Shown: piece by piece, positions 43,439 to 45,401 of the stretch | Numbering within the stretch: the first letter of the stretch is position 1 | Layout: each line of letters opens with the position of its first letter | Assembly (NCBI RefSeq): GCF_000516515.1 | Contig: NZ_KI911784.1 | Span: 124,001 to 188,000, forward strand | DNA: 64,000 nt | From: Chloroflexus sp. Y-396-1 | Lineage (GTDB): Bacteria > Chloroflexota > Chloroflexia > Chloroflexales > Chloroflexaceae | Direction: 5' to 3' | Made by a program: the position numbers and the translations under genes | Notes under the pieces: model-generated | What the model was told of the DNA's origin: nothing | Databases searched by the model: none | What the model saw: only the letters and a program-made list of their open reading frames with translations

Positions 43439-43448
43439 AATATTTATG

Positions 43449-43641
43449 ACTTCACTGCAAAAAGGTTATCTTCTCACCACAGAGACCACGGAGATCACAG
43501 AGACTAAAGATGATCATTGAACATAGGGTTGTGAATTTTTTCTTACATGCACCCAATAGCCAAAAATTATCCTTATTATTCATAAATCTTAGACGCTCTG
43601 CGTGCTCTGTGTGCTCCATGGTGAGTTTTTGCAGTGGACTC
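43449..43641. mobile_element. MITE-like element, family 2, copy 1 (193 bp)
   Basis: The ends are inverted repeats around CACTGCAAAAA, continuing to CTCACCA. The element is bounded by a 7-bp direct repeat ATTTATG (43442-43448 and 43642-43648). Internally it carries CTCACCACAGAGACCACGGAG-like sequence, of the kind seen as dispersed repeats in many bacteria. It is highly similar to copy 2 at 45052. No coding frame is convincing. It starts 10 bp after the excisionase-like gene's stop. Confidence 0.82.
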
Positions 43642-43725
43642 ATTTATGCAAACTTATATAATACCGGGAAGATAATGCCAACGATAGATGGCATTGCCCG
43701 CCAACACTGGTCATTACAACACTGA

Positions 43726-43917
43726 GCAGGTGATCAGAAACCCGGCTTTCTCATCGGGCACGTACCGTACCCGTGCGATCATTGCGTGAGGGGGGTGCCA
43801 ATATTCTTTCGCTCCAGCACCCCACGTTCTCCTCGCCCCGTGGGGGAGAGGAAGAGGGCGAGGGAGAAGGTGAGGGCGGTCGAGCTGCATCAAAAGCCTA
43901 GATTTTTGATCACGCAC
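43726..43917. mobile_element. MITE-like element, family 1, copy C (192 bp)
   Basis: Left end GCAGGTGATCAGAAAC (diverged); right end, on the other strand, GTGCGTGATCAAAAAT. Flanked by TGA (43723-43725 and 43918-43920). The left 100 bp match the right end of copy E read in reverse, including CATCGGGCACGTACCGTACCCGTGCG. It contains one GC-rich hairpin module. Confidence 0.72.
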
Positions 43918-43981
43918 TGAGAGGTACGGCATTATCGTGAGAGCGACTCCTGGTAGTAAAAGAGTATTGTACAGATGTGCT

Positions 43982-44947
43982 TTAAGGAGCACGCTCATCA
44001 GAGTTATCTACACGCGAAGCGGGTAACGCTCGCACAATGACACGCTGTTTATACTTATTAGGGCCACTGGGCGGCCAGCAGGTAATCATCGTGACCACCT
44101 CATAACCGGTTGGCGCAATATAGCGAGCATTAGCTAACCGCTGCTCAGCGGGTACCCCTTCTTCATCAACGATGATCCGCTCGTGTACGATATAGCGGTA
44201 AGGCTGACCACGACTGTACACTATCACCTCATCACCTGGTTGCAAGTAGAAGAGGTCTTTGAAAACCCGACCATACCCACCGACATGTCCTGCCAGTACG
44301 ATATTATCGCCTTCACCGGGATTAGCCGATCCACGATGCTGACCAACCGCAAACTCAGCGACCTGCCAGACCGAGATCAACTGACCGTTTTCTTCCACCG
44401 TCTCCCATCCTACCTCGATCACCTTCGAGTCAACCTTGATCTTCGGTATCACCAGACGTTCAACTGTCGCTACCCATTCAACACGGCTTGGCTCAGGCGG
44501 TTCAGAAATAAGCAAGCCGCTATCGACCCCGGCAAGAGGTGTTTCTCTGTTCGTCGCCGGTATTGGCGGTAGCGTACCATCGGCTGAAGCGGGTACCGGA
44601 GTGGCAACCACTGTGTCAGACACAGGCGCCCCTCCTGGAACAGTTGCGTTAGCTGGTACAGGGGTAGCAACCGTAATCTCAGCTAAAGGTAACAATAGTG
44701 GACGTGCATCGGCTGGGCGAAAGCCACTAGTGGTCAATCGCGGCGCCGGTAATGGTGAATCACCACGGGCAGCCCAACGGTAATATTCCACTTGCAAGGT
44801 TGAAAACAACACATAGATAAGCAAACTCGCGCCGATAACCATCAGTGATGTCCCAATGAGCCATTGCCCACGACGTTTTGTCGGCACACGCCGCCAGTTG
44901 ATGCGATGAACAATTTGTTGACCAATAAGCGGTAGACGACGAAACAT
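43982..44947 (-). CDS. sortase family protein
   Basis: 321 residues: an N-terminal basic segment with one membrane helix (about 28-50), a Pro/Ala/Val-rich linker, and a C-terminal sortase domain. The catalytic triad is visible: His221 in LAGHVGG, Cys290 in MITCWPP and Arg302 in KQRVIV. It should cut an LPxTG-like motif and join the protein to an amine outside the membrane. Chloroflexus-type cells lack a typical Gram-positive wall, so the acceptor is unknown. A possible substrate with LPATG is encoded at 27009. Confidence 0.9.
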   Translation of the reverse strand: MFRRLPLIGQQIVHRINWRRVPTKRRGQWLIGTSLMVIGASLLIYVLFSTLQVEYYRWAARGDSPLPAPRLTTSGFRPADARPLLLPLAEITVATPVPANATVPGGAPVSDTVVATPVPASADGTLPPIPATNRETPLAGVDSGLLISEPPEPSRVEWVATVERLVIPKIKVDSKVIEVGWETVEENGQLISVWQVAEFAVGQHRGSANPGEGDNIVLAGHVGGYGRVFKDLFYLQPGDEVIVYSRGQPYRYIVHERIIVDEEGVPAEQRLANARYIAPTGYEVVTMITCWPPSGPNKYKQRVIVRALPASRVDNSDERAP

Positions 44948-45051
44948 GATGAGTGTTCCTCAGCGTTACAACTTGTTATTCAGTATATCATGTACTATCT
45001 CATGTTACGCACAGGAACGGCGGAAGGATGTCACCGGCAAAATCAACAATG

Positions 45052-45237
45052 ACTTCACTGCAAAAAGGTGATCTTCTCACCACAGAGACCACCGAGATCA
45101 CAGAGACTAAAGATAATTTTATCTTTCTAAAGTTGTAAAAATTTTTTCTTACATGCACCCAATGGTCAAAAATTATCCTTTCATTCATAAATCTTAGACG
45201 CTCTGTGTGCTCCGTGGTGAGTTTTTGCAGTGGACTC
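45052..45237. mobile_element. MITE-like element, family 2, copy 2 (186 bp)
   Basis: Same structure as copy 1, about 1.6 kb away: inverted ends around CACTGCAAAAA and CTCACCA. It is flanked by a different 7-bp direct repeat, AACAATG (45045-45051 and 45238-45244). Different target duplications at two similar copies are direct evidence of past movement. Confidence 0.85.
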
Positions 45238-45401
45238 AACAATGCCTTTTGAAGGGAGAACAAAACAGACTATCAAAAGCCCAGGTTGTTGATGCCGCGC
45301 TGAGTTGCTCGCCACTTCAGCCGACTCTCTTGCTGAACGCTTGATCAAAACCACGAGTTTCTGATCACGCTCTTTGACCGCCATACTCATGCACAACATA
45401 A

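Follow-up and report, generated by a model that had tools for sequence, protein, structure and literature searches.

The window analysed here, a 64,000-nucleotide stretch of the Chloroflexus sp. Y-396-1 genome, contains two similar short repeats with inverted ends, and the question raised by this locus is whether they are mobile and, if so, what moves them. An initial annotation, made from the sequence alone, had read them as two copies of a non-autonomous MITE-like element spread by transposition, each with a different 7-bp target duplication. Both copies were confirmed where that annotation had placed them, using the sequence and a repeat search of the window, and they are 94% identical. Their boundaries were set by comparison across the whole family, as follows:

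43448..43641, + strand: MITE copy 1, 194 bp, without coding capacity, ends GACTTCACTGCAAAAA / GAGTCCACTGCAAAAA
43442..43447, no strand: target duplication ATTTAT, left of copy 1
43642..43647, no strand: target duplication ATTTAT, right of copy 1
43448..43463, + strand: left terminal inverted repeat, copy 1
43626..43641, - strand: right terminal inverted repeat, copy 1
43473..43502, + strand: left iteron arm, copy 1, CTCACCACAGAGACCACGGAGATCACAGAG (9-bp units NNCACRGAG), predicted to fold onto the right arm
43594..43625, - strand: right iteron arm, copy 1 (from sequence and predicted fold)
45051..45237, + strand: MITE copy 2, 187 bp
45045..45050, no strand: target duplication AACAAT, left of copy 2
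45238..45243, no strand: target duplication AACAAT, right of copy 2
45051..45066, + strand: left terminal inverted repeat, copy 2
45222..45237, - strand: right terminal inverted repeat, copy 2

In each of the two copies the 16-bp end on the left is GACTTCACTGCAAAAA and that on the right is GAGTCCACTGCAAAAA, and both start with GA. A single open reading frame of at least 80 aa overlaps a window copy; it lies at 45000-45263, extends past both ends of the copy, and on inspection bears no likeness to a transposase. We note that a second dispersed repeat is located near copy 1 (43731-43922), with related pieces elsewhere in the window (51043-51197, 4313-4728, 29508-29550 and 55911-56462), and that related pieces also lie within 1.5 kb of several MITE copies.

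Family size, target duplications and nested copies

The two copies belong to a far bigger family than the pair originally described, with at least 50 copies of ∼203 bp each in the 4.89-Mb genome and ends of the form GASTYCACTGCAAAAA. The element gives 45 blastn matches in this genome, an end-pattern search added more copies, and the 16-mer end occurs 57 times as against none for a reversed control. Bounded ends define 53 elements in the genome, mostly 186–207 bp long and with a median pairwise identity of 91%, although one (L054) is only distantly similar to the rest. Exact duplications flank 34 of these (30 of 6 bp and four of 7 bp), rising to 47 when one mismatch is allowed, whereas random re-pairing of the flanks gives means of 0.98 exact (maximum six in 2000 re-pairings) and 4.64 within one mismatch. 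Six of the 53 copies are without a clear duplication, which counts against transposition; the annotation had named copies lacking duplications as evidence of that kind.

The target site is C|AWNNWT|G, normally duplicated over 6 bp and occasionally over 7. Among the 30 copies with exact 6-bp duplications the first base is A in all and the last is T in 29, with C usually before the site and G often after it (in 14 of the 30). ATTTATG and AACAATG do each occur twice around the window copies, but the true duplication there is 6 bp; the seventh base is the G with which the element itself starts, matched by a chance G on the far side of both target sites. Insertions lie outside open reading frames of at least 100 aa at 23 of the 29 loci with long flanks. 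Both here and in another genome, G056, elements often have GACTTC at one end and GAGTCC at the other.

Movement is recorded in nested copies. At one locus (L043) an element lies inside another, flanked by the 6-bp duplication AAGGAT; once joined, the flanks of the inner element align with copies that are uninterrupted, small indels aside. The same nested junction is present at three other chromosomal sites. The composites there carry duplications of their own (ATATTT at L047, ATCATT at L049 and a partial one, AACGA, at L042), new ones at L047 and L049 that mark re-transposition, and, as we read the sequence, they are bounded on one side by an end of the inner element and on the other by the opposite end of the outer one; it is therefore end identity, and not the interior, that defines the mobile unit. 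A tandem array at L039 (genome positions 1244101-1245107) has about six MITE cores lacking terminal inverted repeats within one outer end pair, with the duplication AAAGGT. No element was found at the corresponding sites in congeners, where the non-coding flanks have diverged and give no exact junction alignment.

The proposal of transposition is well borne out by some 50 dispersed copies with distinct duplications and conserved inverted ends, and is backed further by the nested insertion with its uninterrupted counterpart and by an autonomous element sharing the ends (see below). Inverted ends, duplications that differ between copies, a target preference, high copy number and nesting are all observed, in elements that are short and have no transposase gene. 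The window repeats belong to a MITE family, itself new, moved by an ordinary mechanism that is well supported and in part inferred.

The predicted hairpin and its iteron core

The interior is predicted to form a strong hairpin (-60.7 kcal/mol, z -5.1), which, together with the mostly intergenic location, would suit structured RNAs or regulatory hairpins that had spread by recombination and not by transposition. We regard this as extremely improbable given the target duplications; moreover, compensatory changes are few (15 of ∼3100 pair cells, versus 228 broken) and there is no Rfam match, and on these last two grounds an RNA function was set aside.

Inside the ends, the left side has three 9-bp units (NNCACRGAG) and the right side a set that matches them. 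The initial annotation likened the CACAGAG-type interior to dispersed bacterial repeats, and it does recur in repeats with other ends; the correction needed is that its 9-bp iterons form a separable module. In several lineages, iterons follow these ends: of 28 exact ends in other genomes, a number that includes a few paired ends of one locus, 15 have at least two iteron units within 50 bp, compared to 0.06 expected from shuffles. Iteron palindromes are also found in repeats of G018, from another genus of the same family as the window's (L066, L069, L071, L075 and L077), some of them bounded by a different outer sequence, CTTTCAGTTATAGAGTTTTTG. Inverted 9-bp iterons likewise bound GxxExxY (PF13366) genes at L185, L187, L190, L200 and L202, the first of these being the single GxxExxY gene of the window's genome, where the iteron blocks are tandemly repeated. 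GxxExxY genes were rejected as the partner of the MITEs, as they have the iterons but lack the CACTGCAAAAA ends.

The iteron core could in principle be the mobile unit, with a GxxExxY protein moving it and the ends being secondary. This would accommodate the iterons that bound GxxExxY genes in several of these genomes, the palindromes without CACTGCAAAAA ends, and the array of cores at L039. However, the duplications sit exactly outside the 16-bp ends and not outside the iterons, L084 and the 55-bp L104 retain ends with few or no iterons, and one GxxExxY gene would have to serve ∼50 copies in the window's genome, making this a very unlikely account.

The interior iterons (NNCACRRAG) are nonetheless the least ordinary part of the element, and from their recurrence the iteron module seems common to several kinds of repeat. 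We suggest, tentatively and with considerable doubt, that the palindrome might be a portable module in its own right that has repeatedly been recruited behind the ends of different transposons and also around GxxExxY genes, the cause being a widespread bacterial protein that would recognise it and promote its spread or retention. A search of the literature on iterons, GxxExxY and MITEs in these genera found nothing relevant, and the modular core isolated here, which these genomes have in intergenic repeats of several kinds, has a role that is undescribed in the literature searched.

Distribution and a candidate autonomous partner

The exact 16-mer end is present in 12 of 400 Chloroflexota genomes, with control counts near zero; in addition to the 57 occurrences in the window's genome there are 99 in G056, 27 in G042, 22 in G054 and 17 in G132, while the six near-complete congeners of the 400-genome sample have none. 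Among the single-match genomes, the match in G251 (L095) looks like chance. Viral contigs were set aside: each of their 26 exact end matches looks like a chance occurrence, with neither iterons nor a convincing partner end.

A copy in G042, which we take to be Roseiflexus sp. RS-1, is 94.6% identical to copies in the window's genome and has the duplication ATCTGT. Lateral transfer is the simplest reading of this sequence similarity, pointing to a likely exchange between two genera. Several G042 copies (L114, L115, L123 and L116) also contain IS110-family insertions at one shared internal spot, which suggests site-specific targeting of the iteron arm. These elements, with 1.3 kb between ends, were examined as partners and dismissed as insertions into a MITE. 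The same applies to an element in G056 (L164, 1-1107), with ends GAGCCTGTTATG from which we presume it to be of IS5/IS427 type, apparently inserted at CTAG just inside a same-type end.

The initial annotation also called for an autonomous element that shares the ends. Two insertion sequences with ends of this kind, one of them intact, are present in other Chloroflexota genomes. Starting from an end in G310 we reached L215, an element of 1.9 kb that has both ends, a frameshifted transposase and an imperfect duplication (ATGAAT versus ATAACC), and a genome-wide scan with the L215 transposase led to L262, a contig of a Chloroflexi MAG. The L262 element (802-2668, 1867 bp) is intact, with ends GACTCCACTGCAAAAA / GACTCCACTGCAATAA, the 7-bp duplication ATGATGT and an intact transposase of 560 aa; it interrupts an open frame, and joining its flanks restores a frame of 288 residues. 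It thus combines the same ends and the same type of duplication as the MITEs. The transposase domains, DUF772 (PF05598), DDE_Tnp_1_6 (PF13751) and DDE_Tnp_1 (PF01609), are those of the IS1182 architecture, and the best NCBIfam model is IS1182 (NF033551; E 7.9e-38); the score of 130.6 bits falls below the curated equivalog cut-off of 270, and we therefore call the element IS1182-like and do not file it as a member of IS1182.

Related Chloroflexota transposases lie between GATACTGTTGGCGAA-type ends and also have 6-bp duplications. Duplications of 6 bp flank the related insertion sequences L224, L226, L233, L234, L239 and L264. In a tree, the transposases that go with CTGCAAAAA-type ends group as a clade of their own, distinct from the ones that go with GATACTGTTGGCGAA-type ends; support is 0.995 for L262, L263 and L215 together, but only 0.54 when L264 is added. 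The L262 element has no iterons and shares only the 16-bp ends with the MITE, so iterons are unlikely to be essential for transposition and only the 16-bp ends would be needed for movement.

An autonomous partner in the same genome is usual for a MITE but not required, and no homologue of the L262/L215-clade transposase was detected in the window's genome; present-day mobilisation there is consequently unproven. A congener, G005, does contain an internally deleted relic of this clade with a recognisable left end (L306). It is unlikely that the copies owe their movement to another transposase, one that uses these ends in common with the clade or has converged on them. The lack of a detected clade member and the nine PF01609 transposase matches in the window's genome speak for such an enzyme, as does an overlap with the IS of just 16 bp; yet the ends are absent at all four of the nine PF01609 loci that were fetched, iteron-free ends of this type flank the IS1182-like transposase genes of L262 and L215, as related ends do in L264, and end type tracks transposase clade.

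We conclude that the MITE family is very probably cross-mobilised in trans by the divergent IS1182-like clade. Its DDE transposase would recognise the 16-bp ends GA[CG]T[CT]CACTGCAAAAA, cut the element out or copy it, and insert it into AT-rich targets of the form C|AWNNWT|G, most of them intergenic, with duplication of 6 (sometimes 7) bp. The window copies would then have been moved by a transposase of the L262/L215 clade, one that was presumably once in the lineage and has since been lost. A large dispersed repeat family is thereby tied to a specific transposase clade, with concrete ends and a target rule.

Comparison with known systems

As with other IS-derived bacterial MITEs, the elements are short and non-coding, have target duplications, share their inverted ends with an IS and occur in many intergenic copies; they differ in sharing just the 16-bp ends with the IS and in having a 9-bp iteron core that recurs in repeats with other ends. 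The L262 element resembles the IS1182 family (NF033551) in domain architecture, in its length of ∼1.8–1.9 kb and in ends starting GA, albeit with CTGCAAAAA ends where other Chloroflexota IS1182-like elements have CTG(T/C)TGGCGAA. Among other dispersed repeats, REPINs are tied to RAYT proteins. REPINs and REP sequences (PMC3116915) are, like the window family, short dispersed intergenic palindromes, but the window family is set apart by its target duplications and IS-type ends.
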